Below, piece after piece: positions 4,607-26,287 of a stretch of 26,287 nucleotides of DNA. Source of the stretch: a virus; the IMG/VR virus record IMGVR_UViG_3300033571_022531, positions 1 to 26,287 of that record; one strand, 5' to 3'. The stretch's first letter is position 1; every line of letters begins with the position of its first letter. A model generated the notes under the pieces. The model searched no databases and was not told the origin of the DNA. It was given only the letters and a program-made list of their open reading frames with translations. The position numbers and the translations under genes were made by a program.

Positions 4607-4607
4607 T

Positions 4608-6458
4608 TTATTGTCTAAATTGCCTTACAAGTTGTTCGGTTTGTGCATTTATGTACCGATTAAATTCAATATTTTTTGCTGCTTGTTTGCTTTGTTTCCA
4701 AGCACCGGCTTTTGGTGCCAAACCGCCCATGGCTTTTATGGTTTTTTCATTAACACCACTTGTGGCCAAACCAGCTAAAGCAATTCCCATTTGTTCATTT
4801 AAAGTTTCTGCTTCGCCGCTTTCGGCTGGACCAAATGCGCGCCCTTTTGTTAGGTTAAACCTAACGATTCTGTTGTAAGTTTCCCTAACATTTTCGATTG
4901 CGGCACTTTTTTCTTTTGCTTTTGCTGCTTCACTAGCATTGGTTGCAAAAAGCCTTCTAGTTACCAATTTTCCGCCTTCTGCGGGAATAACAACATCAAA
5001 GCCACGCTCCCTGTATTCTTTTGGTTCATAGCCACGGCCAGTTTGGCCAACGCCTTGGGAAGCAAGTTTATTTTGTTCTTTCCAAAGCCTATCCATTTCT
5101 AATGTAGCCATTTCTTCGTGGGCTTTTCTTTTTTCTAATTGGTTTTTAGCAATAGCCGCTTCCAATGCCGATTTTGCTTGTATGTTTTTTGGGTCTAAAT
5201 TTTGTGCAATTTCTTTTATGCGCATATCGGCAATGTCGCGCATGTTGTTCATTGTTTGTAATGTTGCAGCCCTTTCATTTCCTAAAGTTTCAAGGTGCAT
5301 TTTAAACAAATTGAACTTTTTTTCTTTGTTTAACTTTTGGGCTTCAACATCCCGTTCTATTTCACGGTTCAACATAGTAAGCGCTAAGTTTTCCCCGCCT
5401 GCCAAACCAGAGCCGGCACCTGCTAATAAAACACCCAAAATAGTTCTAATTTTTCTGCCGGTAGACATGTTTTCAAAAACCCTGTCTGGGTTAATGTCTT
5501 CTGACATTAATTTGTTTCTAAAATCTTCTTCTGCCGTAGAAATTCTTTTTGTAATGTCATTCAATACATTTTGTGCAGCTGCCATACGTTCGGAAGTGGG
5601 CAGTTTTGCATCAAACATAACTTCTTTTTGGTCACGAAGTGGTGAAGGTAATGGGGCAGGCGCTAAGGGTGCAGTAGGCGCGCCGGTAACAGCGCCAGGA
5701 ATGGACTGCCCCGGCTGTGCCGCTGTTACACCACGCTGTGATTGTTGTGCGGCTGTTGGTGCAGCTAACCCCTGCTCAAATTGTTGGTCGCCAGCAAGTT
5801 GTTCGGCTTGTAATAATTTTTGCTGTTGTTCTTCCTGTGCTGCTTGTAATTCGGGCGTTACTGGTTGCGCGGCTGTAAAATCAGGTTCAACTGGTGGTTT
5901 CATTAACCCAGCCTGTGGCATGGGTGGTTGGTTTCTTTCTGTTGTGGGCGTGTATTCGGTTCTTTTTCCTGTGTAACCTTGAATAACACCGGCACCTACG
6001 GGGCCAAATACGTTTGCAGCTGCTTCGCCCATTCGCAAGGGCGTTTTTAAAGTATCAACTGCGCCTTCAACTACTTGTTTTGCCGCATTTGCAACGCCAG
6101 CCATAACAGGCTGTAAAACTTGGCCCATTACTACACCCACATTTTTTGCTGTTTCGCCCTGTTGTGTGGGTTCTGCCTGTACAGGGCGTTCAGTGTATTG
6201 CCCCATGGTACTTTCTTGCGGAATGGCACCCTGTTCTTTTGTGCCAAGCATTTCTTCGTTTAATTTTGCAACAGGGTCTTGTACTAATTTTTCGCTTCCA
6301 CTTGCTTGATGCAAAGGCAAACTACCAAGTTGTTTAAGCTGTTTTCTGTTTAAGCCATTTTTTGCAATATTTATTTTATGCCCGTTTTCATGTTCTAACG
6401 TGGCGGAAGCATTATCTTCGGCAACTTTTTTAAAACCGCTGTACAAATCTTGTAGCAT
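4608..6458 (-). CDS. Internal virion protein candidate (T7 gp15-position)
   Basis: The product is 616 aa. ATG at 6458 lies one base after the upstream stop, with AAAGGA at good spacing. The first 70 residues are polar and include a LEHENGHKINIAKNGLNRKQ segment that may be a small separate domain. Residues about 105-160 form a helical stretch with hydrophobic faces. Residues about 170-285 are low complexity, rich in Pro, Gln and Ala. A strongly helical region (about 290-470) follows, including a Gly/Ala/Leu-rich segment (RTILGVLLAGAGSGLAGGEN) and a likely coiled coil. No enzymatic motif is visible. By composition and position it is probably an internal virion or ejection protein. Confidence 0.55.
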   Translation of the reverse strand: MLQDLYSGFKKVAEDNASATLEHENGHKINIAKNGLNRKQLKQLGSLPLHQASGSEKLVQDPVAKLNEEMLGTKEQGAIPQESTMGQYTERPVQAEPTQQGETAKNVGVVMGQVLQPVMAGVANAAKQVVEGAVDTLKTPLRMGEAAANVFGPVGAGVIQGYTGKRTEYTPTTERNQPPMPQAGLMKPPVEPDFTAAQPVTPELQAAQEEQQQKLLQAEQLAGDQQFEQGLAAPTAAQQSQRGVTAAQPGQSIPGAVTGAPTAPLAPAPLPSPLRDQKEVMFDAKLPTSERMAAAQNVLNDITKRISTAEEDFRNKLMSEDINPDRVFENMSTGRKIRTILGVLLAGAGSGLAGGENLALTMLNREIERDVEAQKLNKEKKFNLFKMHLETLGNERAATLQTMNNMRDIADMRIKEIAQNLDPKNIQAKSALEAAIAKNQLEKRKAHEEMATLEMDRLWKEQNKLASQGVGQTGRGYEPKEYRERGFDVVIPAEGGKLVTRRLFATNASEAAKAKEKSAAIENVRETYNRIVRFNLTKGRAFGPAESGEAETLNEQMGIALAGLATSGVNEKTIKAMGGLAPKAGAWKQSKQAAKNIEFNRYINAQTEQLVRQFRQ

Positions 6459-6459
6459 A

Positions 6460-7797
6460 TTATTTCCTTTTGCGTTGTTTTGCCAAAACAGCCGCTACAA
6501 ATTCCCGCGCCTTTTCTGCCGGGTCTTTTGATTGCATTACACTTCTTGGTATTACTATTCCGCCTTCTTCAAGCGTGGCTGGAACAGTATCATTTTTTAA
6601 ACTGTCTCCAGAAACCCTTGCCTTGCCAGGTATTTTTTTACCAGCTTCGACGGGTTCCTTTTTTCCTTCTTTTACTTTTTCAACTTCTTGCGGCGGTAAA
6701 TAACGTTCGCCTGGCGAAAGCATGGCCGGCACAGTTCCACCTTCAGCAAACCCAGGCGTAAAAGCACCTATTGCTTGTGGGTTTACCAACGGGTTTATCA
6801 TGGTTGGCATTTGTGTTTGAACCGGCAAGGCAACTCGTGGTGCTGCCATTGGCATTTGTGGTGCGCCAGGCATTTGCATGTTGACCCCTAAATTAGCGCG
6901 GTCATAAGCAGCTTGCCCATAAGGCTTAGGTTCTTCTTTTGTTTGTTCTTTTTTTGTGGGTGCTTTGTCGTAATCGCTTAGGCTTCCTAGCGGGGCACGA
7001 ATGTTGGTATTAGCATCAACGCCGCTACTGCCATCAATTCCAGATTTAAATTTAGAAAAATATTCGCCGTAGGAAGGAACTTCGCCCCCGGCGGCCATGG
7101 GCATACCAGCCAAAGCGCCAGCGCCACCAAGTATTTTTCCAAACATTCCTGCTTGGCCTTGTGCTGTTTGTTGGGCAATAGCCGCGTTTGCAGCATTGAT
7201 ATTACTTTGCATGGCAATTTTTTGCGCATTAGCTTGGGTGGCTGCTTGTAACGCCATTTGCTGTTGCTGTTGTGCCGCTTGCAAACCAGTTGTACCAGCT
7301 TGTGCAACTTGCCCTAACTGTTGTCCAGCCAAACCAGCCAACGCCTGTTGTGCTGATTGCTGTTCCCCAGCCCTTAAAATTGCTGCTTGACCGGCTGCCT
7401 GTTGCTGCGCCCCCATGCCAGCTAAGGCCGCTTGCCTGCCGGCCAAGCCAACATTAGCAGAAGCACCACGTTGGCCAGCCATAAGCGATGCTTGGTTTGC
7501 AACGTTTTGCCCTGTTGCTTGTGCTAGTTGTGCTTGCGCCACACTTGGGCCCAGCCCTTGTGCCTGTTGTGCTAATTGGCCAGCAACTAATTGTTGGTTT
7601 GCAATAGCACCAGGTGTTTGCGCAGCTAGCGCGGCAGTAAAATCACGTTGCCTTTGTAATTCCTGTTGGCTTTGTGCTTGCCCCAAACCTAAGTCTAAAT
7701 TGCTTACGGTTTGTTGGTACGAACCCATTCCGGGTACGCCTTCTGCGCGCCAACCCATACCAGAACTACTATTAAATAAATCGCCAACGAAACCCAT
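6460..7797 (-). CDS. Ala/Gln-rich internal virion protein candidate (T7 gp14-position)
   Basis: The product is 445 aa, with ATG at 7797 and AAGGAG located inside the end of the upstream gene. The N-terminus (MGFVGDLFNSSSGMGW) is followed by about 190 residues dominated by Ala, Gln and Gly, predicted almost wholly helical, as in small internal core proteins of T7-like phages. A Gly/Ala/Met-rich hydrophobic patch (GKILGGAGALAGMPMAAGG) sits near residues 218-237. The C-terminal third holds two related modules, FAEGGTVPAMLSPGERYLPP and DTVPATLEEGGIVIPRSV, a motif seen in phage structural proteins. The extreme C-terminus is basic. An ejection or core role is inferred from order and composition. 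Confidence 0.55.
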   Translation of the reverse strand: MGFVGDLFNSSSGMGWRAEGVPGMGSYQQTVSNLDLGLGQAQSQQELQRQRDFTAALAAQTPGAIANQQLVAGQLAQQAQGLGPSVAQAQLAQATGQNVANQASLMAGQRGASANVGLAGRQAALAGMGAQQQAAGQAAILRAGEQQSAQQALAGLAGQQLGQVAQAGTTGLQAAQQQQQMALQAATQANAQKIAMQSNINAANAAIAQQTAQGQAGMFGKILGGAGALAGMPMAAGGEVPSYGEYFSKFKSGIDGSSGVDANTNIRAPLGSLSDYDKAPTKKEQTKEEPKPYGQAAYDRANLGVNMQMPGAPQMPMAAPRVALPVQTQMPTMINPLVNPQAIGAFTPGFAEGGTVPAMLSPGERYLPPQEVEKVKEGKKEPVEAGKKIPGKARVSGDSLKNDTVPATLEEGGIVIPRSVMQSKDPAEKAREFVAAVLAKQRKRK

Positions 7798-7798
7798 T

Positions 7799-8173
7799 TT
7801 ATAACTCCTTTGCTAAAATAGTTTGGTTAGAAACCCTAAAACCTAAATTATCAGCACGTTTTAGAATGCAGGGTTCTTCCGTAAATGCAATTACCCTTTT
7901 AAACCCAAGGTTTCTTGCTAAGTCTAACAGCGTTTTGGCCAACTTTTCTAATGCTTCGTGCCTTACACTGCTTTCAAAGGTTTGGTTGCTGGCAACAGAA
8001 TCAATACAACATAATTCGCCTTCCATTAACCTTAAACCTGCAAAAGCTACAATTTCATTATTAACGGCGGCACAAAAAGTATGCCCCGGTAAATCTGACG
8101 CTTTTAGTGGAAACGGCAACCATTTGTTTACCGTTTCTATTTCAGTTCGTTTGTTTAATATTCTTATATCCAT
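7799..8173 (-). CDS. GNAT-fold protein, T7 gp13-like by position
   Basis: The product is 124 aa if translation starts at ATG 8173, one base after the upstream stop (TAA T ATG); a TTG at 8182 would add three residues and is less likely. The order of elements fits a GNAT N-acetyltransferase fold: a strand with IVAFAGLRLMEGELCCIDSV (about 41-60), a long helix with RHEALEKLAKTLLDLARNLG (about 71-90), a FKRVIAF strand and a terminal ADNLGFRV segment. The usual acetyl-CoA loop Q/RxxGxG/A is not evident, so catalysis may be lost. T7 gene 13, between the tail tube gene and the internal core genes, also encodes a GNAT-related virion protein. I infer an equivalent assembly role; a true acetyltransferase is the alternative. 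Confidence 0.6.
   Translation of the reverse strand: MDIRILNKRTEIETVNKWLPFPLKASDLPGHTFCAAVNNEIVAFAGLRLMEGELCCIDSVASNQTFESSVRHEALEKLAKTLLDLARNLGFKRVIAFTEEPCILKRADNLGFRVSNQTILAKEL
7805..7810 (-). promoter_or_regulatory. Strong Shine-Dalgarno AAGGAG for the 445-aa gene
   Basis: The minus strand reads AAGGAG seven bases before the ATG at 7797. It is embedded in the final codons of the GNAT-fold gene. A strong SD here suggests high-level expression of the first internal virion gene. Confidence 0.7.
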
Positions 8174-8174
8174 A

Positions 8175-11100
8175 TTAACCAACTGTATCGAATTGGCTTA
8201 CAGGCCCGTAACCTTTCTTAATGCCTACAACCAGGTTCATACCTGAAAGCGTCAAACCTTCACCGGCCACAGCGCCATAAGCTGGGTCAAATTGTTCTGT
8301 TATCGTAAATTGCACGGAATCGCACTTTTGCTGTTCTAGCAAAATGCGCCATTTTTCCACGTTCGTTACGCCGCCCCACGTAATGGTTTGGCCAAAAGTA
8401 ATGTTACCGCCCATAGGCAAATTGTAGTTATTTGGCGTAATAATTGTTTGCCCAACAATGCTGGAATTAAAATTATATGAAGTTCCAATAACCAACCGGT
8501 GCGGGCTTATGTAGCGGCCTAATAAAAACAAGAAATACACCCGCTGAAAACCTTGAATACCGACCAAAGCAAACCAGTTGGTTTTAAAATGCATTAAAAC
8601 AGGGTGACCGCCGTCTAAATATTTACCGGGGGTTTCTTGGTAAATTCTTATAATAGTTTGTTGGTTACTAATTAGTTTAAATAAATAAGTGTGCAGGTTT
8701 TCATACAAAGTTGCAGAAATGCCGGGCACATTAGTAAAAGTTCCCCATTGGTTGTAAAAGTAGTCGTACATTAAGGTAATGCCAGAATCCATAAGGAAAC
8801 GAACTTGGTTTGTGCCAGGTATTGCCGTTGCAGAAACAACCATTGCACCAGTTGTGAACAGTTCAACGGGCGCACCAATGTAAGTAGTGCTTAAATCCCT
8901 ACCCAATAACCAAATGCCTTTGTCGCTTTGAAACATTAGCCCATTTGGAATAAACACAATACTCTCTTGGTTTTCACAACCAATGGTAGAGGTAATAAAA
9001 ATTGGTTCTGAATATTGTGTTCCGGCACCGGTTGCGTCTGGCCCGGTTCCGTTTAAATAGTAAATGGCATCGCGTTTAAAAATGCATAATTTGTCGTCCA
9101 TGGGTGCTAAGGCCCGAACAGTTCCAGTAGCGCCTTGCGCACTTTGTGTTGGCGAAACGTAAATTGTAAAAAGGTCAGACATTTCTACGGGCGTGTTTTG
9201 AATTACTTGTTTGGAATACCACAACACGTTTTTATTTTCGGAATCAACAAACCATAAACGGTTATCAAACAAGGTAAGGCTTGTGCAAGCCGAAGTGCCA
9301 ATGTTTTCTATTACATTTCCTGTGGTGTACAACAAATTATTACCAAGAATTGTGCTGTCTGCTTGTGTGTCCACAAATGCGGTTATTGAATCAGTTGCTG
9401 TGCTGCTTATAATTGGCGCAGTTAAACTGGTTACTTGGTAATAGTTTTGTTGGTTTACGCCCCACCGGTAAATGACCACTTTTACATTTGTTTTGTAAGT
9501 AAGGCGCAAATTCGGAACATTTATTGTTACAGACCCAGTGCTAGTAGCGCCAGTTGTTTGTACGGCAACAGGAACGCTTGGGGCACTTCTAAAAATGTTA
9601 CCTTGGTTATCTGACCATTCATAAGTTACTTGGTAAAAATATGTATTTTGTGTGGCCGCAGGTGCCGACATGCTACCACCGGTAGAAGACCATGCGCATG
9701 TTACATAATCAGGGTACAAGAAAAAATTATTTTCAGTTGCAGAAACGCCATCATAACCCCATAACAAACCACCACTAATATTTAAGTTGTTTCCAATTTC
9801 TGTTGTATTTACTTTTTGTTCGCCTAAATTTACTTGCGCTAAATTTACGCCTGTTTGTGTGTAAATTTGTGATGTTTGCGTATTAGCATTAACGTTGGTT
9901 TCTTTGTTTGCCGACTGTATTACGTTTTTAAATAAGTAAGGAAAACTTGCGGCTGTTCCATTCACATAAACACTTGGTAAACCTGTTGTTAAATAGCCAC
10001 GGGCGTTTTGGTAAGCCAAACGTAAAACAACATTTCCGGTTGTGTCTAATAAAAAATATGTTGGCTGATTGTTGGAACTGTAAACCGTTAAAACGTATGT
10101 TGTGTCGTTACAAATAAAGGCTTTTGAAGCAAGCCCGACAGAACGTTTTAACACAGTAGAAGAACCAACCGTAATAGTTCCAAGTGCTGGATTTAAGGTT
10201 GCGCTTACTATGTTTAAATAGTTTGTTTGTGGGTTTGGCGAATATGAATAAGTGTTGCTTACTTCAGAAATAATTGTACACACATTGCTTTTTGAAACGG
10301 TTGCCAAATTTAACAACGTTCCAGAACTAACCCATGTTGCACTTGCCGTAACGTTTTGCGTGTTTGGGTTTAATGTAACCACTTGCCCCGAAGTCGTAGG
10401 CAAATTGTATGTTGTTACAAATATGCTGTTGCCATCGGTACTGCTACTAATAATAGTTGCTGCATTTGCGGTTACCAAGGTTGGTGAAGTAAGAGACAAA
10501 TTACTTTTAAGCCTTGTGCAATAAACATTAGAACCGGTTCTTGCCCATGCTATGTGCAGGTCGGAATTTAAAACAATTCCATCAAAAGAAATGGTTGTAG
10601 CGTAGGCTAAACTTGTTTCTATTGTTACGGCTGAATTTGCAATTAAACTAATTGAATTAACCGCTATGTATTGCAAATAATAAGAACCGCCTACTTGCAC
10701 AGGAAACAAAATAATAAAATTATTTCCTAAACAAAAAACCCTAGGCGCAGCCACGGGCGTGCCCGCACCGGTAAGCGCTGTTGGCGATATTAAATTTTGT
10801 GTGGTTTCTACGTTTAATACGCTGTATTTGTAGGTGGTTGTTCCGCCGTTTAATTCAGAATAAACAACACAAACTAATCCATTGGGGCTGAAGGCAGCAT
10901 CGCATTGGGTTTGGTTTAGGCTGTTATTTACCAGCGAAGAAACATTTAAACTTAGTGGTTGTATTCTGCCCTTGTTTACAAAGTTTTGGTTGCTGGGGTT
11001 GTAGGCATAAATGTTTTTACCAAGCGCGGTTAAACCGCCTTTAAAAGTTGCAATACCGGTAACAGTTTCATCGGTTAAGCTTCCCACCTGCCCATAGCCA

Positions 11101-11243
11101 TTTCTTTTTTGCAAAAGCCCATTTTTATTAAAAACAGAATTTTGCAGTTCTAAAAAATTACCAATGGGAACTTGCCACGGGTCACTTTTTGTATCTAACC
11201 CTTGCGAAAAATTAACTGCTATTTGTTGTTTTTGTAACGCCAT
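8175..11243 (-). CDS. Tail tubular protein B-like / tail nozzle protein
   Basis: The product is 1022 aa; ATG at 11243 overlaps the upstream stop (TAATG). The N-terminus (VNFSQGLDTKSDPWQVP, then LLQKRNGYGQVG) is typical of podoviral nozzle or stabilisation proteins. Residues about 640-790 contain further family-like patches: LFDNRLWFVDSENKNVLWYS, LAPMDDKLCIFKRDAIYYLN and IGCENQESIVFIPNGLMFQS followed by DKGIWLLGRD. The rest is strand-rich with many Thr, Ser, Asn and Gly, as expected for beta-propeller and beta-sandwich domains. It is longer than T7 gp12 (about 790 aa), with extra beta-rich sequence in the first half. It probably forms the distal tube below the adaptor ring. Assignment rests on these patches and on position before a GNAT-fold gene. 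Confidence 0.75.
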   Translation of the reverse strand: MALQKQQIAVNFSQGLDTKSDPWQVPIGNFLELQNSVFNKNGLLQKRNGYGQVGSLTDETVTGIATFKGGLTALGKNIYAYNPSNQNFVNKGRIQPLSLNVSSLVNNSLNQTQCDAAFSPNGLVCVVYSELNGGTTTYKYSVLNVETTQNLISPTALTGAGTPVAAPRVFCLGNNFIILFPVQVGGSYYLQYIAVNSISLIANSAVTIETSLAYATTISFDGIVLNSDLHIAWARTGSNVYCTRLKSNLSLTSPTLVTANAATIISSSTDGNSIFVTTYNLPTTSGQVVTLNPNTQNVTASATWVSSGTLLNLATVSKSNVCTIISEVSNTYSYSPNPQTNYLNIVSATLNPALGTITVGSSTVLKRSVGLASKAFICNDTTYVLTVYSSNNQPTYFLLDTTGNVVLRLAYQNARGYLTTGLPSVYVNGTAASFPYLFKNVIQSANKETNVNANTQTSQIYTQTGVNLAQVNLGEQKVNTTEIGNNLNISGGLLWGYDGVSATENNFFLYPDYVTCAWSSTGGSMSAPAATQNTYFYQVTYEWSDNQGNIFRSAPSVPVAVQTTGATSTGSVTINVPNLRLTYKTNVKVVIYRWGVNQQNYYQVTSLTAPIISSTATDSITAFVDTQADSTILGNNLLYTTGNVIENIGTSACTSLTLFDNRLWFVDSENKNVLWYSKQVIQNTPVEMSDLFTIYVSPTQSAQGATGTVRALAPMDDKLCIFKRDAIYYLNGTGPDATGAGTQYSEPIFITSTIGCENQESIVFIPNGLMFQSDKGIWLLGRDLSTTYIGAPVELFTTGAMVVSATAIPGTNQVRFLMDSGITLMYDYFYNQWGTFTNVPGISATLYENLHTYLFKLISNQQTIIRIYQETPGKYLDGGHPVLMHFKTNWFALVGIQGFQRVYFLFLLGRYISPHRLVIGTSYNFNSSIVGQTIITPNNYNLPMGGNITFGQTITWGGVTNVEKWRILLEQQKCDSVQFTITEQFDPAYGAVAGEGLTLSGMNLVVGIKKGYGPVSQFDTVG

Positions 11244-12388
11244 TATAATTCGTAAGCTAAAAGTGTAGCACCAATTACAGAAGCAGGGCAGCTGAGTATT
11301 GTTTGTAAAGTAACTTTGTACGTGTACGTTCCAGCGGCAATAACGTCCACGGCATTTACGCTACTTGCTGGAAGTCGAATATCATTTAACCCAAACGTGT
11401 AAGCGGTAACTGTATTAACAACATCGCGAATAAGGCCAACAGTTGCCCATTCGGTTCCGCTTGTTCCAGTAATTCTTAATGTTCCGCCAAGTAACATAAG
11501 CATTACCGGCCTTCCGGTTGTGGTAATTGTGACGGTTAAATTTGTAACGTCAGTTGCGGAAGCGTTTGTTGTGGTAAAAGTTCCAGAACTACTACTAATT
11601 TGTTGGCCCACCGCCGCTAATTTTGCGCGTGTAACATTGGCATTAATAATTTGGCTAGTTCCAATGCTATTATTTGCCATTTGCGTTTGTGTAATAGTTG
11701 CATTGGCAATGTTTGAAGCGGTAATTGTTTTTACTTGTAGGGTATTACTAGATACTTCAATAGTTGAATTATCTACAATGTAATTTGCAACCATGTTTCC
11801 AGTAGAATCCATGGTTAAAATGCTGGTGCTTCCGGGGCGGGCAGGCAGCACAATGCTTGTATCGGCACCAAGGCTTGGTACAGAAACAACCATTTTGTAT
11901 GAAGACGCCGTGGAATTTCTTAACCACAAATCACGGCAGTCTATAATTGCGGCAACGTTGCTGTCGCTTTGAAATTTAAAACTATTGTCAGCGTCTACGA
12001 ACGCGGCACTTGCACTTTTTGGCGGTGTAGAAGGTAAACCTGTAATTGTTCCAGTGGCACCGGTAACAGAACCGCTTTGTGTAATTCTTACATTGTTGCC
12101 GCCGCCATCAACATAATAAAGGTCTACGCCAGAAACATAAACGCTTTGGTTTGTTGGCGTTGAAAGTTGGGGTGTAAAAGTAACACGGCTTGTATCGGTA
12201 AGCCCAAAATTATTCATGGGCAAGTTACCATTAATATTTAACCCGTTAGTAGGAATTGCAACGCCTTTATTAGCGGTATGGTCGTGTTCGTCGATTAAAG
12301 TAAAACAGCTTACTTCTTGATTTGCGTATTGTGGCCCTGGTGTAACGTTTACAATTGGTAGGGTTAAATTCATGTTAGGTGTAGCCAT
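11243..12388 (-). CDS. Tail fibre / tail spike protein
   Basis: The product is 381 aa, ATG at 12388, with AGGA seven bases upstream, partly in the gap after the upstream stop. The N-terminus has a DEHDHTANKGVAIPTNGLN segment (about 33-51), a fibre motif with an HxH pair that could bind metal in a trimer. The middle has beta strands and a YVSGVDLYYVDGGGNNVRIT segment. At about 215-265 a run of short repeats of the form I..A.IT...M...SIG.S.I (ending near VTRAKLA) looks like a triple-stranded beta or coiled stalk. The C-terminal 110 residues form a beta-rich domain that may be the binding tip. It sits between the collar and nozzle genes, so fibre genes are inserted into the usual adaptor-nozzle pair. 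Confidence 0.75.
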   Translation of the reverse strand: MATPNMNLTLPIVNVTPGPQYANQEVSCFTLIDEHDHTANKGVAIPTNGLNINGNLPMNNFGLTDTSRVTFTPQLSTPTNQSVYVSGVDLYYVDGGGNNVRITQSGSVTGATGTITGLPSTPPKSASAAFVDADNSFKFQSDSNVAAIIDCRDLWLRNSTASSYKMVVSVPSLGADTSIVLPARPGSTSILTMDSTGNMVANYIVDNSTIEVSSNTLQVKTITASNIANATITQTQMANNSIGTSQIINANVTRAKLAAVGQQISSSSGTFTTTNASATDVTNLTVTITTTGRPVMLMLLGGTLRITGTSGTEWATVGLIRDVVNTVTAYTFGLNDIRLPASSVNAVDVIAAGTYTYKVTLQTILSCPASVIGATLLAYEL

Positions 12389-12397
12389 ATTTTTTTC

Positions 12398-13012
12398 CTA
12401 TGTTTTGATTATGTAATTTAACGCAATGTTTGCGGGGTACGTTTCAGTTCCGGTTCCGCTGCTAGAAATTGAATGCGAATGCGAAGAATTGGTTAATGTA
12501 ACTGCTCCGACAGATGCGCCTGGCAAAGTATTTTGTCCAGGCCCTACGGCAAAACTGCCTTGTTGTGCAGGTACCGTGCTAGCCCCAGTTGCCCCCCCGT
12601 GGTTATGCGATTCTAAATTATCTACTTGTTTTGTGCCTATGGTACCACTGTATGTTTGGCCCGATATAGTTTGAGAACCAACACCCCTTACAAAAATACC
12701 CCTACAATCTGGCACGTTAAAACTTGATGCGCCTGTACCCCCATAAGTTGTGCCGATTGCAGTGTACAAGGCAGCATACTGCGTATTAGCCACAGAATCG
12801 TAAGTAGAGCCATCGCAAAATAACCAACCGTCGGGCGCTGAACTGCCAGCAAACATAACCACCGAACCCGTCGGAACAGAAGAAGGGGTTGTGCTGCCGT
12901 TTATGTTTTTTAACTGGTCTTGCAAGTCAGTAACTTGCGCAATGGTTTGGTCAAGAATTGCCTTCCAACGCGTAGTCTGCAAGCTTTGTGGTAAGTTAAT
13001 AGGTAATTGCAT
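12398..13012 (-). CDS. Phage tail collar domain protein
   Basis: The product is 204 aa from ATG at 13012, which overlaps the upstream stop (TAATG); a TTG two codons earlier is rejected. Residues 1-45 form a short helical N-terminus. Residues about 46-112 match the tail-collar fold (Pfam Phage_Tail_Collar): VPTGSVVMFAGSSAPDGWLF, CDGSTYD, a YAALYTAIGTTYGG helix and FNVPDCRGIFVRGVG. The C-terminal part has paired histidines, SHNHGG (H136, H138) and SSHSHS (H178, H180), then TYPANIALNYIIKT; such HxH pairs bind metal in trimeric fibre tips of other phages. It is likely a short fibre or baseplate receptor-binding component. Confidence 0.85.
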   Translation of the reverse strand: MQLPINLPQSLQTTRWKAILDQTIAQVTDLQDQLKNINGSTTPSSVPTGSVVMFAGSSAPDGWLFCDGSTYDSVANTQYAALYTAIGTTYGGTGASSFNVPDCRGIFVRGVGSQTISGQTYSGTIGTKQVDNLESHNHGGATGASTVPAQQGSFAVGPGQNTLPGASVGAVTLTNSSHSHSISSSGTGTETYPANIALNYIIKT

Positions 13013-14109
13013 TACCAACCAGTTCCGAACGGCCCCTGCCAGCCCCCACCCCCGTCGGGGCCGAAGCCAGAGGCCATTCTACCGTCCGAAACGGTGTCGG
13101 CTTGGCCTTCATCCCTGTTCGGTGCGGATTCTTCTATTCTTTGTTTTAAATAAATAATTTCTGCGTCTAGTTTGCTGCTATCGCTTTCTTCTTTGTCCAA
13201 AGCGTATTTAGCTGCGCGGGCAATAATGTAATTCGTCCAACCGTTGTACCCATCAGTTGTGTCTGTTTCTAAAACAAGTTGCCTTCTTCTTGGCACATAC
13301 CACAAACCAATTGGTTGTAAGCTAGAAGGTGTTGGAATGAAACGAATGGTATTTCCAATTACACGGTACTGCATTCCGAACACGCCGTAAATTGTACTGG
13401 CCGTATTTGGGAAGACGTACCTGTTTCTGTCTATCAGGTTATACTTCTGAATCGTCACAAATCCATTGGGCGCATTGTTTAAACCAAGGTCAACGCCGGC
13501 TAATTTGTAAAGTGGTGGCGGAACAATATTGTTACCTTGCTTGTCTTGAAAAACCGTAATGCCATCGGGTAATGGGTAACTTTGTTGACTGCCATTTGTT
13601 GTAAAAAATACCGGACCTTCAACTTGGTAATCTTCATAAACAGTCGTGATAAGGTCGTACAATTCGTCAGCTGCTAGGTTAATAAAACTATTCCATTCCG
13701 GAAGCGTTACAAAATTTGAATTTACCCTGTCTGACTTTTGTTGGGCTAACGTTCTTAATTGTTGAAGGCTCATGTAGCCGGCAATTACAGGAATAATTGA
13801 AGCAGGCGTGGGTGAAGTTAGCCCGCTTTCATATGTGCCCGGCGTTGGTAAAGTAACAGTTTGAACTGTGCTTACCCAATACCAGTATTGAATGTTTTGT
13901 GTGACAGAAGTGTCTAAATATTTATTATCGGTTACTGTGGCAATTAAACTTGGGTCTGAAATTCCGCCGGTTGGAATAATGCCGGTTGTATTGCGGTAAA
14001 CCCTATAAGAAATAGTTGCGCCCGGAACAATATTCCAACTTAGCAAAACTTGTTTGTTGCCTTGCTGTAAAAATGTTTGTTGTGGGTTAGGTGCAAAAGG
14101 TGTTGGCAT
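13012..14109 (-). CDS. Head-tail adaptor with N-terminal fibronectin-III-like domain
   Basis: The product is 365 aa from ATG at 14109, with AAGGG five bases upstream; a GTG at 14145 would place the N-terminus inside a hairpin and is rejected. Residues about 5-105 look like a fibronectin type III domain (VLLSWNIVPGATISYRVYRN, IQYWYWVSTV, YESGLTSPTPASI). From about residue 113 the sequence resembles podoviral adaptor or tubular-A proteins: SLQQLRTLAQQKSDRVNSNF, VTLPEWNSFINLAADELYDL, a YEDYQ segment, then NTIRFIPTP and WTNYIIARAAKYALDKEESD. The tail ends in a Gly-rich GPDGGGGWQGPFGTGW. The adaptor ring would join portal to nozzle. The extra Ig-like domain would be displayed outside the ring. Confidence 0.75.
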   Translation of the reverse strand: MPTPFAPNPQQTFLQQGNKQVLLSWNIVPGATISYRVYRNTTGIIPTGGISDPSLIATVTDNKYLDTSVTQNIQYWYWVSTVQTVTLPTPGTYESGLTSPTPASIIPVIAGYMSLQQLRTLAQQKSDRVNSNFVTLPEWNSFINLAADELYDLITTVYEDYQVEGPVFFTTNGSQQSYPLPDGITVFQDKQGNNIVPPPLYKLAGVDLGLNNAPNGFVTIQKYNLIDRNRYVFPNTASTIYGVFGMQYRVIGNTIRFIPTPSSLQPIGLWYVPRRRQLVLETDTTDGYNGWTNYIIARAAKYALDKEESDSSKLDAEIIYLKQRIEESAPNRDEGQADTVSDGRMASGFGPDGGGGWQGPFGTGW

Positions 14110-20672: not shown

Positions 20673-22094
20673 TTAGGCTAGTTCGGAAAAGTAATTATCG
20701 CTTTCTTCTATTTCGCGTAAGCGGTCGTAAGTTTCTTCAAACATTCTTTCTTCTTCCTGCTTAAACCAACGTTCGGTGTACGGTTTGGCAACAGGTAGTT
20801 CAGGTTCAAACACCCAGTGGTAGGCTTCGCGGAAAGCGTACAAGACGGCATCACAAATGTCGGAATGGTAATTGTCTTTTAGCTTAAGCTTTTCGGGGTT
20901 AGGCGTGTCGTTATCCCATTCCACAAGCTTTGTGTCGTACGCGAACATTGAAGTGCGCTTAGCATAGAACTTTTTAGTGCGAAGGGCGTCGTTTAATAGT
21001 TCTATGTATTCAAACTTACGGGCCTTTTCGGCCGCTGCTATGGGTATTTGGTGCCGCTTGGTTATTTCTTCGGCAATTTTCTTACCCAGCCCGCCAGTGT
21101 CCATTACTATTTTCTGCGGGTTGTACTTCTTAACCAAGGCTTCTAGTTGGCCTGCTAGTTCGGTAATGCCTTGCTTTGCGTGCACGGCTTCTTCGAACAG
21201 GTACAAAGCGGGGCTTTTTTCGTGCCAGCCAAGCACCGCCACAGCGTCAGAATCATCAAAGCCCAAATCGACGCCAAACACATAATTCCAACCATTTCCC
21301 AGGTTTGGAATAGTGGCGTAGTCGTTACGGTCTTCGCTGTATTTAAAGACAAGGGCGTCAGGGTCAAAAGCCCAAACGCCAAAACATTCACGCTGAATGC
21401 TGGGTTCATCACGCGTAACCCCCTTACGGTCAAGTTCCCGTTGCAGAATTTCTTCATGTGTTAGCCCGCTTTTCTTCGGTAGCCAAGGGTTATCGAACAT
21501 TGTCCAATGGTGGTGCGAATACTGCGGGTTATTGCACATGTCGTAATAGAAGCCTGTGGCCACAGGGGCAGGCGTGCCTATTAGGCGTAACCGCCCTGCG
21601 TAGTCAAACAAGCTTTTAGCTATAACTTCATCTACAAGCTGTTGAATGTACGGCCGAAAGCTTTGGCATTCATCTAAATAGCAAAGTATTAAGCTAATAC
21701 CACGGAACTTTTCCACTTCCTGCGAATCTTTTGCCCCGGAAATGTAAATTACGCTTTCGTTTGGGAAGGTAAGGGTAAGTTCGCTTTCGTTGACCTTTGC
21801 GCCAAGGCGGTATTCTCGGTTAATTCTAAGAAGGTCTGGCCAAATGATTCGTTTGGCAGACAATCTATTAAGTGTGAGATAGAGGCAATTAACTCGCGGT
21901 CTACTAAGAGCAGTTGAAACCATATCCGCGCAACAGGCCAAAGTCTTACCCGCTCGGCGAGAACAGCAAGCTGTGGCGAAAGGTGCTTTATCCTCGACAA
22001 AAGTGCGCTGTTTACCAAAACAGAATTTCGCAACTTCAAATTTAGGCGTTCCGCGCAGTTGCAGGTATTTTTCGTATGTTTCATTGCTGGCCAT
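20673..22094 (-). CDS. terL: Terminase large subunit
   Basis: The product is 473 aa from ATG at 22094, 14 bases inside the end of the small terminase gene; a TTG six codons earlier is less likely. It is the packaging motor with ATPase and nuclease domains. Visible motifs: a Walker A-like SRRAGKT (45-51), Walker B ILCYLDE (136-142) with catalytic Glu142, a coupling motif LIGTPAP (171-177), and an RNase H-like nuclease with Asp276 (FGVDLGFDDSDAVAV), Asp332 (IVMDTGGLG) and Asp412/Asp415 (YHSDICDAVLYAF). All key residues are present. It is coupled to the small terminase and follows the TET/JBP-type oxygenase gene. I cannot tell the packaging type (cos, headful or direct terminal repeats). Confidence 0.95.
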   Translation of the reverse strand: MASNETYEKYLQLRGTPKFEVAKFCFGKQRTFVEDKAPFATACCSRRAGKTLACCADMVSTALSRPRVNCLYLTLNRLSAKRIIWPDLLRINREYRLGAKVNESELTLTFPNESVIYISGAKDSQEVEKFRGISLILCYLDECQSFRPYIQQLVDEVIAKSLFDYAGRLRLIGTPAPVATGFYYDMCNNPQYSHHHWTMFDNPWLPKKSGLTHEEILQRELDRKGVTRDEPSIQRECFGVWAFDPDALVFKYSEDRNDYATIPNLGNGWNYVFGVDLGFDDSDAVAVLGWHEKSPALYLFEEAVHAKQGITELAGQLEALVKKYNPQKIVMDTGGLGKKIAEEITKRHQIPIAAAEKARKFEYIELLNDALRTKKFYAKRTSMFAYDTKLVEWDNDTPNPEKLKLKDNYHSDICDAVLYAFREAYHWVFEPELPVAKPYTERWFKQEEERMFEETYDRLREIEESDNYFSELA

Positions 22095-22440
22095 TTCGCA
22101 GCCTACGTTCAATTTCGGGCGTTAGCTTTTCGTCAGGTATTTCGCGTAGCTTTTCATCGGGAATGTTTACAAAATCAATTTGCTGGCGGCTTGTTTGCCC
22201 CAAGTAGTGCTCGCACATGTGCTTTAGAATGGCGTCGCTACCGCTGATGGCCCTGTGCCACAACAAGTCACGCAGTTTTGCCTTCCCGTTCTGCCTGCCA
22301 AGTTCAACTTCTGCCGCATAACGGCGATGAATTGTGTCCGTGGAAACCCTGAAAAACGCCGCAATTTCGGTAATACTCCACTGCTTTTCAGCGCATTTAA
22401 TTAATTGTTCTACGTCTAACGTTTTTCGTGGCCTTGCCAT
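22081..22440 (-). CDS. terS: Terminase small subunit
   Basis: The product is 119 aa from ATG at 22440, with a GGG SD (AAAGGGTTAGGT) just upstream, two bases after the oxygenase stop. The N-terminus is basic (MARPRKTL), followed by a helix-turn-helix (SITEIAAFFRVSTDTIHRRY, about 22-41) typical of small terminases that recognise the packaging site. The central helical segment (LRDLLWHRAISGSDAILKHM) continues into CEHYLGQTSRQQIDFVN, a pattern seen in small-terminase proteins that form rings. The C-terminus is charged. The gene overlaps the large terminase start, as expected for partners. Confidence 0.85.
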   Translation of the reverse strand: MARPRKTLDVEQLIKCAEKQWSITEIAAFFRVSTDTIHRRYAAEVELGRQNGKAKLRDLLWHRAISGSDAILKHMCEHYLGQTSRQQIDFVNIPDEKLREIPDEKLTPEIERRLRNGQQ

Positions 22441-22442
22441 AC

Positions 22443-23291
22443 CTAACCCTTTCTTTTTCGCTCCAATATTTTCTTCAGTTCTAGGTTCTTTTCGCGGCGG
22501 TTTAACGCCTGCCTTGTTTTTACTACCTTCAGCCGCTTCAATTCTTCTTCAAACGGGTAACAGTGCCGTAAGTTTTTTAACGTATAATTTACAATACTAC
22601 TACGAAACGCGCGCGTACCGTGAAAGGTACACGGTGTAACCCCGTGAAGTATTTCTTGGCCCCTAAAAAATACCATATAACCATTTCCTTGGTGCAGAGT
22701 AATGTTGTATTCGGGGCAGGCTAAATGGCCACCATCACAGTTTTCTTTTACAATTAAAACATTGCTTAAGTCTTCTTTATTATTACCAAAATCCCTGTGG
22801 TATTTAATAACTTGGTTCATGTTTATGTTTAAGTTCGCCCAAGGGGTTTGAACAAGCCTGTAGTCTGTGTGCACTTCTTCTTCCACTTTGCGTAAAGCAA
22901 CTTCGTAAAATTCGGGTAGGTTCTTTTTGTAAAACTGCGCTAAAAGTTCGTTTAATTTCATGGCTAGTAGCATGTTTTGCCGTTCTTCTTTTGTTTGCCG
23001 GCTAAACCTACAGTAGTCTTCCCGTATAGCTATGCGGGGCAGTGGCCCGTAAACAGTGCTAAGTTGGGGCACCCCATGCTGGGTTCTGCTAGAAGCTTTA
23101 GGCTTTGTTCCCTTGCTAATAACCCTGGCCAAATTGGCTATTTCAGCGGGCGCTTTGTAATAGGCGCATAGCAAACTGCCGGCTTCGTCATAAATTAGGC
23201 ATTCGCGGTCAATTAATTCGCCCACTATGCCGTTTGGGTAGTCCCCGGGCTTTAGGCTTGTGGGCACCTTTTTGGCTATTATGGTTTCCAT
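22443..23291 (-). CDS. TET/JBP-family 2-oxoglutarate/Fe(II) DNA base oxygenase
   Basis: The product is 282 aa from ATG at 23291, overlapping the ParB-like gene by 13 bases. The core (about 140-240) has the double-stranded beta-helix iron site: YHRDFGN gives His165 and Asp167, ILHGVTP gives His216, and RSSIVNYT gives Arg230 as likely 2-oxoglutarate ligand. From memory, HxD-to-His spacing of 51 and His-to-Arg of 14 are close to trypanosome JBP1 and animal TET. The preceding LNINMNQVIKYHRD and following SNVLIVKENCDGGHL also fit the TET/JBP pattern. The N-terminal 90 residues are unassigned and the C-terminal 35 are very basic, perhaps DNA-contacting. Phage TET enzymes are known to oxidise 5-methylcytosine; JBP oxidises thymine. 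The substrate here is undetermined, and no methyltransferase or glycosyltransferase is in the window. Confidence 0.82.
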   Translation of the reverse strand: METIIAKKVPTSLKPGDYPNGIVGELIDRECLIYDEAGSLLCAYYKAPAEIANLARVISKGTKPKASSRTQHGVPQLSTVYGPLPRIAIREDYCRFSRQTKEERQNMLLAMKLNELLAQFYKKNLPEFYEVALRKVEEEVHTDYRLVQTPWANLNINMNQVIKYHRDFGNNKEDLSNVLIVKENCDGGHLACPEYNITLHQGNGYMVFFRGQEILHGVTPCTFHGTRAFRSSIVNYTLKNLRHCYPFEEELKRLKVVKTRQALNRREKNLELKKILERKRKG

Positions 23292-23893
23292 TGTTTAAGC
23301 AGTTGCAGAACCACTTCGCTTACGTCCCCGCAGCTATTTACTTGCATGTACCGTTTAAAACCTTCAATTACGGTTTCATATTCAGAATTGTCGTAGGTAA
23401 GTTTTATTTCAAAAAAGTCCCTGTCTAGGTATTTGGCTAGCTTTTCTTCGGCCGTTGGGCCGTTCTGGGTTTGCCCGCTTTCGCGCATACTTTCTGTGGG
23501 GTCTACCGTAAAGTGCGAAACGCCCACAAGGTCAATGTCAAAGGGGCCCAGTTCAGTAAGGTCAGCGTTAATGCCGCTTAGGTCTAGTTCTGCCCAGCTG
23601 GCAATGGCATTGTCGCTTTGTAGAAATAGCCATTCTTGGTCATCATCTTCAAAGTCTTGAAATACAACGGGGGCTTCGTCCCAACCGTTTTTTTGAATGG
23701 CCTGTAATGTGCCGTGCCCTTTTACTATTTTGCCCGAACGCGTGCTTACTACTATGGGTGCGCGCAACCCTTGGTACTTAAGAATTTTGGCAAGCCTATT
23801 TAGTTGGTCTTCCGGGTGTTTGTTTCTGTTCTTCGGGTGCGGTTTTAGTGAACCGCATTTAACTAATGAATCGTATTTACAGTGAATAACCAT
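23279..23893 (-). CDS. ParB/sulfiredoxin-fold protein linked to DNA modification
   Basis: The product is 204 aa from ATG at 23893, inside the last codons of the upstream gene. Residues about 8-80 match the ParB N-terminal/Srx domain: LKPHPKNRNKHPEDQLNRLA, a GLRAPIVVSTRSGKIVKGHG segment with the GHG signature (59-61), LQAIQKNGWDEAPVVF, then DNAIASWAELD (94-104), the DN-A-E pattern seen in phage ParB-like and ParB-methylase proteins. No DNA methylase domain follows and there is no ParB HTH domain, so a chromosome segregation role is unlikely. ParB-like domains occur beside predicted base-modification enzymes in phages. Overlap with the oxygenase gene suggests a joint function, perhaps DNA binding, nucleotide-driven loading or nicking at modified DNA. 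That role is inferred. Confidence 0.8.
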   Translation of the reverse strand: MVIHCKYDSLVKCGSLKPHPKNRNKHPEDQLNRLAKILKYQGLRAPIVVSTRSGKIVKGHGTLQAIQKNGWDEAPVVFQDFEDDDQEWLFLQSDNAIASWAELDLSGINADLTELGPFDIDLVGVSHFTVDPTESMRESGQTQNGPTAEEKLAKYLDRDFFEIKLTYDNSEYETVIEGFKRYMQVNSCGDVSEVVLQLLKQWKP

Positions 23894-24587
23894 ATAAGCA
23901 TGCCTTTTCGTATATTTTTGGGGCGGCCCAAGGGGCTACCTTATTTTTTACAGCTGCTTCCACTACAATTCCAATAGGCGAACAAATAAAAAAGTAACCT
24001 ATTGAATAGGTTCCGATACTACAACCGAGCACTACCGCCCAATAACTGGCCACTGGTGCCACGCCCTTGTACCGTTCATCAGCAATGAAGTGTTTGCTAA
24101 ATTCTTCTTCGCCATACACGCACGGCCGAAACACAACGCGAAGGCCGTAATTAAATGTTTTAATGTCTGTAAGCCTTAAAATTCCGCAAACTTCTAGCCC
24201 TAAAACTTGTTCAAACGTTTCGTAAGTAGTGTCCAACCATTCTGAAAGCGGTTCAAAGTCACCAATGTTTCTTTCATGGCGGGCTATTTGAATAATGGTG
24301 CCATCAAGCCTGCGCCATTGGCGTTCAATTCTTCTGGCGGTCTTTGTGAAACCTTTACGTCGCAAATTTCGGGTTCCAATTTTAACCATTGCCCGAATAG
24401 CTGTGTTGCTAAGCACAGAAAGCTTTTCCAGTTCATTTACTTGGGGTTCTATTTTTTTAAGAAGCCTGTTTGCTTCCGTAAGTTGTTCATGCGTGTATGT
24501 GCCGTTTCCATGTATTTCTTTGTAAGCTTTAGAATAATCCCCAGCAAAACAATTTAGTGCAAAGCACAAAATAACTAAATATTTCAT
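23877..24587 (-). CDS. Exported protein with signal peptide and C-terminal membrane segment
   Basis: The product is 236 aa from ATG at 24587, overlapping the upstream stop (TAATG), with AAGGA nine bases upstream; a TTG eight codons earlier is rejected. Residues 1-15 (MKYLVILCFALNCFA) are a typical signal peptide, with cleavage likely before Gly16; the ALNC sequence is not a good lipobox. A helical charged domain (about 30-105) is followed by a segment with Cys124 and Cys146. A strongly hydrophobic stretch (about 170-201, YWAVVLGCSIGTYSIGYFFI) should span the membrane. Five cysteines in the mature part suggest disulfides. I do not recognise the family. It could be a host-envelope protein for superinfection exclusion or lysis; neither is shown. 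Confidence 0.6.
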   Translation of the reverse strand: MKYLVILCFALNCFAGDYSKAYKEIHGNGTYTHEQLTEANRLLKKIEPQVNELEKLSVLSNTAIRAMVKIGTRNLRRKGFTKTARRIERQWRRLDGTIIQIARHERNIGDFEPLSEWLDTTYETFEQVLGLEVCGILRLTDIKTFNYGLRVVFRPCVYGEEEFSKHFIADERYKGVAPVASYWAVVLGCSIGTYSIGYFFICSPIGIVVEAAVKNKVAPWAAPKIYEKACLYGYSL

Positions 24588-25003
24588 TACGAAAGTTCCT
24601 TTACCAACCAATTTTTGTCATCCAAACTGTCGTACAGTTTCTTTTCATTAAATTTTGTCCTGTTCCGCAACCATTCTTCTACTTGAAATTTTTGCACTTC
24701 TTCGGGCGACAAAAGCATAATTTTTTCGCCGCGTTCGGTTAATTCCAGTTCCCGAAGTTCGCGCATTTTATTAATGGCTTCAATTTTTGCCGCCACTTCT
24801 TTTTTTCCTGCAATTCCAAATTGCGCCAACGTAACGATGCACTCCCCAAGGCGGTAAGAATCCCCCGCCTTGAGGGCCATTTTGGTGATCTTAACTTTTT
24901 GCCTTTGTTGGGTGCGCGGACGCCACCAACCTTTTATTTTGGTAAAGCTGACACCGCAATAGAACACAAGTGCATGAAAAAGGTTTTTAAACAGTTTAAA
25001 CAC
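24587..25003 (-). CDS. Protein with one N-terminal hydrophobic segment, unknown function
   Basis: I favour GTG at 25003 as start (138 aa), because it overlaps the end of the upstream gene in the way usual here and has AAGG nine bases before it. A TTG at 25075 would give 162 aa but lies deep in the upstream gene. Residues about 4-19 (FKNLFHALVFYCGVSF) are hydrophobic and could be one membrane anchor. A basic stretch (KGWWRPRTQQRQKVKITK) follows, then a mostly helical charged domain including EVAAKIEAINKMRELRELEL. No known domain is evident. Pairing with the exported protein immediately downstream hints that the two act together at the envelope. Confidence 0.5.
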   Translation of the reverse strand: MFKLFKNLFHALVFYCGVSFTKIKGWWRPRTQQRQKVKITKMALKAGDSYRLGECIVTLAQFGIAGKKEVAAKIEAINKMRELRELELTERGEKIMLLSPEEVQKFQVEEWLRNRTKFNEKKLYDSLDDKNWLVKELS

Positions 25004-25558: not shown

Positions 25559-25588
25559 AATTACACTTGCTTCACTTATGTGTAATTA
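25558..25588. repeat. Nine-base inverted repeat across stop and start codons (operator candidate)
   Basis: TAATTACAC (25558-25566) and GTGTAATTA (25580-25588) are perfect inverted copies with a 13-base spacer. One arm begins at the start codon of the GNAT-like gene; the other contains the stop codon of the HTH gene and part of the 17-bp motif. Centre-to-centre distance is 22 bases, about two helical turns, as for a dimeric regulator. An RNA hairpin blocking initiation is the alternative. Confidence 0.4.
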
Positions 25589-25594
25589 GGCCAA
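25578..25594 (-). promoter_or_regulatory. Candidate phage promoter motif
   Basis: The plus strand reads ATGTGTAATTAGGCCAA, differing from the copy at 14921-14937 at one base. It spans the end of the HTH gene and the gap before the GNAT-like gene. If it is a promoter, it would start the block of small genes, ParB-like, oxygenase and terminase. Confidence 0.42.
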
Positions 25595-26068
25595 TTTCAG
25601 GCCAAATTCTTTTTCCATTTCTTCAATTGCGTAGCGAATTTCCCGGCGGGTTGTTTTTAATTCTTTGGCTATCTTATATTGGCTTAAACCTTCTGCATGC
25701 AGCTGCCAAATAATACGCGCCCTAATTGTTTTAAATTCTTTTTCATGAAGAAATTGCGAAGCTAACCGGTAGTATTCCGCCTGCGATTCTTTCCATATTA
25801 GGCTTGAATAGTTGGCGCTTCCGTTTGGCCTTTCCATTTCTGCCTGTTGAATCAGCAAATCAAGTGAAATTAAACCACGGCTATTTGGTTGTTCTGGGTT
25901 TGGCAAGCCACCATCATGTGAAATGGTGCCACTCCAATTTTTTAAAAGCCCAGTTCTTCTATCTTCTATGTCACTAAAACCTACTTCTGCTAATTTTCTA
26001 TCCCAAATTTTATTCAGCCGTTGAAGAATCTTCTTGTTCGCATGCCTTTTTTTCGTTTTTTTTTGCAT
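25586..26068 (-). CDS. Helix-turn-helix DNA-binding protein
   Basis: The product is 160 aa from ATG at 26068; a TTG one codon earlier is possible but not needed. No clear SD is visible, and the start lies inside the upstream gene, so coupling is likely. The N-terminus is very basic (MQKKTKKRHANKK). The middle has NKIWDRKLAEVGFSDIEDRR and an ESQAEYYRLASQFLHEKEF helix. The C-terminal part (about 116-152) is an HTH like those of sigma-region-4 or transposase-type domains: ARIIWQLHAEGLSQYKIAKE followed by LKTTRREIRYAI. I infer a phage transcription factor or DNA-site recognition protein; a role in packaging-site recognition is an alternative. It lies directly upstream of an inverted repeat it might bind. 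Confidence 0.65.
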   Translation of the reverse strand: MQKKTKKRHANKKILQRLNKIWDRKLAEVGFSDIEDRRTGLLKNWSGTISHDGGLPNPEQPNSRGLISLDLLIQQAEMERPNGSANYSSLIWKESQAEYYRLASQFLHEKEFKTIRARIIWQLHAEGLSQYKIAKELKTTRREIRYAIEEMEKEFGLKLA

Positions 26069-26287
26069 CAATTAAAGCTATGGCTTCAACTGCAACTTGG
26101 TTGCTTGCTGCTTTTCGAACCAAATTTGCTAGTTTGTTTTTTGGAACAAATGCTTTTGTAGGTGGCATTTGCAAAATAAGCATTCCGACAATTCTTTTTA
26201 GTTTGTCATTTACCGGCAACCCGCTTAGTTCGCTTATGTCATCTACCCAGTTGTTAAATTCAGTAAGCCCCTGAGGTAACTTTTCTG
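26010..26287 (-). CDS. Small helical phage protein, 5' end outside window
   Basis: This frame is open to the right edge and ends at TAA 26010-26012, leaving 91 visible residues; the N-terminus is missing. A TTG at 26219 is internal, because the frame continues upstream with sensible sequence (EKLPQGLTEFNNWVDDISEL). The body is helical (KLKRIVGMLILQMPPTKAFV, KLANLVRKAASNQVAVEAIA) with a charged C-terminal tail (KKNEKKACEQEDSSTAE). It resembles small uncharacterised phage proteins found next to HTH genes, but I cannot name a function. It overlaps the HTH gene by 59 bases, longer than other overlaps here. Confidence 0.6.
   Translation of the reverse strand, partial: EKLPQGLTEFNNWVDDISELSGLPVNDKLKRIVGMLILQMPPTKAFVPKNKLANLVRKAASNQVAVEAIALIDAKKNEKKACEQEDSSTAE

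Follow-up and report, generated by a model that had tools for sequence, protein, structure and literature searches.

Gene content and domain architecture of the locus

In the 26.3-kb IMG/VR virus record that forms the stretch of DNA analysed here (the window), four neighbouring minus-strand genes encode a large terminase subunit (TerL), a probable small terminase subunit (TerS), a TET/JBP-family dioxygenase (hereafter TET) and a ParB-like protein (Table 1). These genes had been reported in a preliminary description of the DNA, and their coordinates and spacing were confirmed by the positions of the open reading frames: the ParB-like and TET genes overlap by 13 b, TET and TerS are separated by 2 b, and TerS and TerL overlap by 14 b if translation of TerL begins with the ATG at 22094 (in the ORF list TerL is longer and begins with the TTG at 22112). 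The gene upstream of ParB overlaps it by 17 b, so that the gene run extends beyond the block; comparison of its product with Pfam, PHROG and NCBIfam gave no significant match.

Table 1. Genes at the locus and key residues of the TET/JBP protein.
Feature	Position	Strand	Basis or remark
TerL, 473 aa from the ATG at 22094	20673..22094	-	phrog_2, Pfam Terminase_6C
Probable TerS, 119 aa, N-terminal HTH	22081..22440	-	Weak PHROG matches, place between TET and TerL
TET/JBP-family 2OG-Fe(II) dioxygenase, 282 aa	22443..23291	-	Pfam, PDB profile, fold model
Key TET residues (numbering of the 282-aa window protein)			H165-x-D167, H216, R230, N157, N170, Y236, L238
ParB-like protein, 204 aa	23279..23893	-	Pfam/PHROG, PDB profile, Foldseek
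Protein without family match, directly upstream of ParB	23877..24611	-	Not a recognised modification enzyme

The preliminary description had also regarded the four genes as a tightly coupled block. The close spacing is real but not special, as gaps of less than 20 b separate most neighbouring genes of the window and tight spacing is the rule on its minus strand; the overlaps alone therefore say little, and it is conservation in other phages that takes the linkage beyond chance. Pfam and PHROG scans of the genes around the window TET gave no C5 cytosine methyltransferase, and the described lack of a neighbouring methyltransferase or glycosyltransferase holds; because the record may be a fragment, however, it holds for the 26.3-kb stretch only. 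Single-protein IMG/VR scans returned no close relatives of the window TET or TerL, so that the phage appears isolated. Several large minus-strand ORFs (998, 616, 445, 1022 and 381 aa, within 1610-12388) were without a PHROG match, which likewise places the phage far from known ones. A small protein with a C-terminal, weakly Tfx-like HTH, encoded on the minus strand at 25586-26071, is a possible regulator.

The terminase pair was borne out unequally. TerL matched phrog_2 (1.3e-40, spanning 23-431) and Pfam Terminase_6C (27.3 bits, over the cut-off, spanning 274-420), with both the ATPase and the RNase H-like nuclease domains present, and its assignment from these profiles can be regarded as secure. 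For TerS the matches were weak (phrog_309, 4.6e-4; phrog_141, 1.1e-3), Pfam gave an HTH only, and the protein did not match or align with the HTH proteins found at the same place in relatives; position and the weak HTH matches make it a probable TerS.

The 204-aa protein, described previously as ParB-like, fell 0.1 bit under the Pfam ParB_N cut-off (26.2 versus 26.3 bits), and its identity is secured by its fold. PHROG families containing ParB matched it down to 2e-24, a PDB profile search found ParB, Spo0J and Noc proteins to 9e-12, and Foldseek likewise matched it to ParB and Noc structures, the best alignments spanning about 100-125 columns. Residues 10-100 or thereabouts correspond to the CTP-binding N-terminal domain, which is followed by a linker and a C-terminal module at 148-204; N22, G59 and N95 are invariant and coincide, in the PDB alignment, with the positions of the box motifs. 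This N-terminal domain is shared with the ParB proteins of chromosome and plasmid partition, while the HTH and C-terminal dimer domains of the latter were not found in the window protein by Pfam or NCBIfam. The ParB domain was also found at the head of proteins in which it is fused to DNA methyltransferases, that is, attached to another base-modifying enzyme.

The 282-aa protein matched Pfam Tet_JBP (5.9e-15, 55.3 bits; cut-off 34.9), and a profile of 46 sequences searched against the PDB placed NgTet1, CMD1, TET2 and CcTet at the top. An AF2 model of the window protein was confident (pLDDT 93.4), and the Foldseek matches to it at ranks 1-26 were all TET or CMD1 structures, followed by ALKBH3 and FTO. 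The iron ligands (H165, D167 and H216) and the 2OG arginine (R230) were invariant in the TETs of the 46-member comparison clade defined below. The fold and catalytic residues are thus those of the solved TET2, NgTet1, CMD1 and CcTet structures, although identity over the structural match is only 12-16%. Pfam, the PDB profile and the fold model agree that this protein is a genuine TET/JBP dioxygenase, as had been proposed, and neither the profile nor the fold comparison placed it in an oxygenase family acting outside nucleic acids. The enzyme is predicted to oxidise a 5-methyl pyrimidine in DNA. The label of phrog_6059, 'queuine tRNA-ribosyltransferase', which might imply a DpdA-type 7-deazaguanine enzyme, was ruled out in favour of TET by the Pfam match, the fold and the residues. 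Phage TET/JBP proteins are often annotated with this name or as 'DpdA-like' (for example, at 813-1691 in locus L004, and in phrog_6059 itself), and these labels look like an annotation error.

ParB, terminase and a variable gene slot beside TET in other phages

Phage TETs taken together proved too diverse for their alignment to be used in scanning, and IMG/VR was scanned with a small phage alignment, which returned 260 relatives. The best 80 of these were read together with 14 annotated phages. Open reading frames served as gene calls and were assigned labels from profiles built for this analysis, and comparisons were drawn within a non-redundant clade of 46 members. ParB was found at most three genes upstream of TET in all 44 testable loci, with no gene between the two in 26, one in 16 and three in two. 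TerL lay within six genes of TET in 36 of 43 testable members and was separated from it by 11 genes in one more, while six members had the ParB-TET pair with no TerL within 12 genes. The TETs that had upstream room but no ParB (P12024L, Cr30 and S-CBWM1) formed a separate supported branch of the TET tree; that tree gave no placement for the window itself, a long branch. In eight loci from cellular genomes, an independent set that had not been used to derive the pattern, ParB adjoined or lay near TET in every case. ParB is thus the constant partner of TET and the terminase is not. The conserved neighbourhood expected by the preliminary description is borne out by these counts; ParB-TET-TerS-TerL is a widespread phage arrangement, and one partly known already; linkage of TET/JBP with ParB and terminase genes in phages was reportedly published by Iyer et al. 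in 2013.

The same gene order, a ParB-like gene followed by TET, a further gene where there is one, and the terminase, was seen in annotated phages, including the mycobacteriophage B cluster (gp1-gp2 of Acadian and Nigel) and phages of Gordonia, Microbacterium, Rhodococcus and Arthrobacter. The TETs of these actinophages, annotated 'Tet-like J-binding protein', 'thymidine hydroxylase' or 'oxidoreductase', are only 21-31% identical to that of the window, and most of the loci carry a kinase, an amino acid:DNA transferase (ADDT) or a glycosyltransferase that the window lacks. The Prochlorococcus phages MED4-117 and P-HS2 share with the window the order ParB, TET, small protein, TerL and its tight spacing, but have an FkbM-type methyltransferase between ParB and TET. 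The annotation of MED4-117 would make the small gene upstream of TET in many loci a methyltransferase; its sequence reads as ParB-like. In that phage (locus L005) the 'DNA methylase' at 4656-5297 is the ParB-like protein, and the 'hypothetical' protein at 5297-5998 is the FkbM-type methyltransferase. Two tandem ParB-TET pairs were observed at about 8900-14000 of locus L068, on a 327-kb contig.

When ParB alone was used in a reciprocal scan, many ParBs were recovered, and ParB-like genes proved common in phages, many of them without TET. Among the unfused ParBs whose surroundings were long enough for a verdict, 23 of the 26 that neighbour a TET had a C-terminal module score of more than 10 bits, against 1 of 24 without such a neighbour; the p-value of this contrast serves only as a guide, as the module profile was built from TET-linked ParBs and the loci share ancestry. 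The module was present in the window ParB (34.6 bits, leave-one-out) and in seven of the eight cellular loci, and on these sequence profiles it appears to mark ParBs that neighbour TET.

Between ParB and TerL, the relatives carry a swappable slot that holds a TAGT-like glycosyltransferase, a P-loop nucleotide kinase, an ADDT (match 9e-23), an FkbM methyltransferase, an FAD or PLP enzyme, or an unclassified 301-aa protein. Slot types were scattered over the TET tree (25 changes against a shuffled mean of 25.1, with incomplete slot labels), which is read as frequent exchange. Since the slot enzymes vary and are scattered in this way, the data suggest that TET makes a hydroxymethyl handle common to all and that its decoration varies. 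ADDT and a DNA kinase are said (Lee and colleagues, 2018) to act on 5-hydroxymethyluracil (5hmU) in thymine-hypermodified phages. No recognisable enzyme was found in the slot of the window, nor in that of L038 or the L085/L086/L088 group, and the window module, which has neither a sugar enzyme nor a methyl enzyme, represents the cassette with its slot empty, a form seen in a few other loci. The 301-aa family (958-1863 in L033, with relatives in L016-L018, L023, L036 and L090) had no Pfam or NCBIfam match and is a candidate new base-decorating enzyme. Two further annotations touch the slot: Acadian gp5 (L004 3022-3588), annotated as a terminase small subunit, matches the slot P-loop kinase profile but was also among the seeds of the TerS profile, so that its TerS label is mixed, and Terij gp3 (L009 1577-2155), annotated as a HicA-like toxin, matches the same kinase profile.

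Thymine or 5-methylcytosine as the base attacked

The C5 methyltransferase family PF00145 was searched for through 40 whole records, 37 of them in the ParB clade. It was found in four, all in the clade and all outside the TET locus, and was absent from the other 33 clade records, including all 11 isolates. Thymidylate synthase or dUMP hydroxymethylase-type genes (PF00303) were absent from all 37 and found only in Cr30, outside the clade, which leaves TET as the visible source of the hydroxymethyl group. A contrasting lineage, which served as a positive control, is that of Methylophilales phage Melnitz, where an HhaI-like C5 methyltransferase overlaps TET (Melnitz-3; L181 2457-4641) and DNA polymerase, recA and helicase genes lie alongside. 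The methyltransferase-TET pair was present in 62 of 63 testable loci of its relatives and ParB in none of 72, although these phages are close to one another and count as one lineage.

The residues around the base differ between the lineages. In the published structures (PMC7854593), the cytosine N4 contact is made by the third residue after the iron Asp (TET2 Asn1387, NgTet1 Asp234, CMD1 Asp350), and the residue two after the stacking Tyr/Phe contacts N3 (TET2 His1904, NgTet1 His297) or O2 (CMD1 Arg418). The ParB-clade TETs have Asn170 in 45 of 46 and Leu238 in 42 of 46, the position-238 residue of the window being unlike that of TET2, NgTet1 and CMD1; the eight cellular TETs have Asn in all eight and Leu in six. 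In the Melnitz lineage, by contrast, Asp occupied the N4-contact position in 53 of 55 sequences read. The Asn can donate to thymine O4, which is suggestive only: TET2 has Asn at this place and oxidises 5-methylcytosine (5mC), so the residue does not show thymine to be the base.

Kinetoplastid JBP1 and JBP2, the thymine hydroxylases of base J, belong to the same superfamily and act on the base proposed here for the window TET, in which, however, no J-binding domain was detected. The phage C5-MT–TET–glycosyltransferase pathway (Burke et al. 2021, cited in PMC12730594) resembles the clade in that TET lies amid modification genes and in the TAGT-like glycosyltransferases of some window relatives; the clade differs from it in its isolates without a C5 methyltransferase, its ParB partner and the Leu at the cytosine N3/O2 contact. 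Taken together, the comparisons lean towards thymine, with 5hmU as the product, over 5mC. As the 'Tet-like J-binding protein' and 'thymidine hydroxylase' labels attest, thymine had been guessed at before; the comparative evidence comes from this analysis.

Interpretation of the ParB-TET module

One interpretation of these data, which we consider probable, is that ParB and TET form a two-gene system that writes 5-hydroxymethyl-pyrimidine into the DNA of the phage, with thymine a likelier base than 5mC, and that acts mainly against host nucleases. The block would then contain a DNA-hydroxylation unit embedded in a tailed-phage packaging operon. The ParB-like protein, with its CTP-binding-type N-terminal domain and its own C-terminal module, would most likely load or target TET on phage DNA through a putative ParB-TET contact, and TET would oxidise the pyrimidine 5-methyl group in DNA that has already been replicated, probably converting thymine to 5hmU, as in kinetoplastid JBP. 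In relatives, the slot enzyme would decorate the hydroxymethyl group; with the slot of the window empty, the mark would stay 5-hydroxymethyl-pyrimidine unless a missing part of the genome encodes a decorating enzyme. Protection from host nucleases is a plausible role for the modified bases and would be the main benefit, and co-expression with the terminase would time hydroxylation before packaging. A more specific form of this proposal, a distinct two-component modifier with a CTP-switch loader, C-terminal docking, thymine hydroxylation and a slot enzyme that sets the final base, is put forward only tentatively.

It could instead be that TET oxidises 5mC, supplied by a methyltransferase of the host or one encoded by the phage outside this fragment, to 5hmC, as in the C5-MT–TET–glycosyltransferase pathway. 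This is a lesser possibility, though one with real arguments behind it. Phage TETs characterised to date are reported to act on 5mC (Burke 2021, cited in PMC12730594), Asn170 is the equivalent of TET2 Asn1387, the slot glycosyltransferases resemble TAGT, and the window, if a fragment, may not include the phage's own methyltransferase. A C5 methyltransferase was present in four of the 37 clade records and in five of the eight cellular genomes holding ParB-TET loci, whose kind could supply 5mC as hosts; on the other hand, none was found in the draft genome of one Corynebacterium with the module. The clade isolates without the gene and its place outside the TET locus where it does occur also argue against 5mC, as a linked methyltransferase is readily seen where present, in the Melnitz lineage, and Leu replaces the His/Arg contact to cytosine.

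The genes around the pair raise two further readings. That ParB serves partition or regulation and TET modifies DNA alone, as unrelated late genes, is unlikely: phage ParB-like genes are indeed common and many stand without TET, but the linkage holds in all 44 testable loci although their TETs have diverged greatly and their slot genes have been exchanged, the C-terminal module goes with TET, and no partition-type HTH or dimer domain was found. Less probable still is that base oxidation serves as a signal for packaging, ParB and TET marking pac/cos or guiding the terminase so that the four genes form one machine. The operon position and the frequent proximity of TerL would fit, and the preliminary description had read the terminase link as a mark of DNA for packaging. 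That part of it found no support, as ParB is invariant while six members have the ParB-TET pair but no TerL within 12 genes; the slot enzymes suit bulk decoration of bases, and TET lineages without ParB do not adjoin the terminase, the Melnitz type sitting instead with its C5 methyltransferase among DNA polymerase, recA and helicase genes. Direct coupling of ParB-TET to packaging is not supported, and the terminase link, explained more simply by the late-operon position, is read as shared late expression.

Cytosine is the base on which phage TETs are generally said to act. The split between ParB-linked TETs, with no C5 methyltransferase and Asn/Leu contacts, and C5 methyltransferase-linked TETs with an Asp contact makes a possible formation of 5hmU from thymine in bacterial viruses, in the manner of trypanosomes, clearly and cheaply testable; cultured phages with the ParB-TET module exist. 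It also suggests that ParB-like domains assist base-modifying enzymes of phages more generally.
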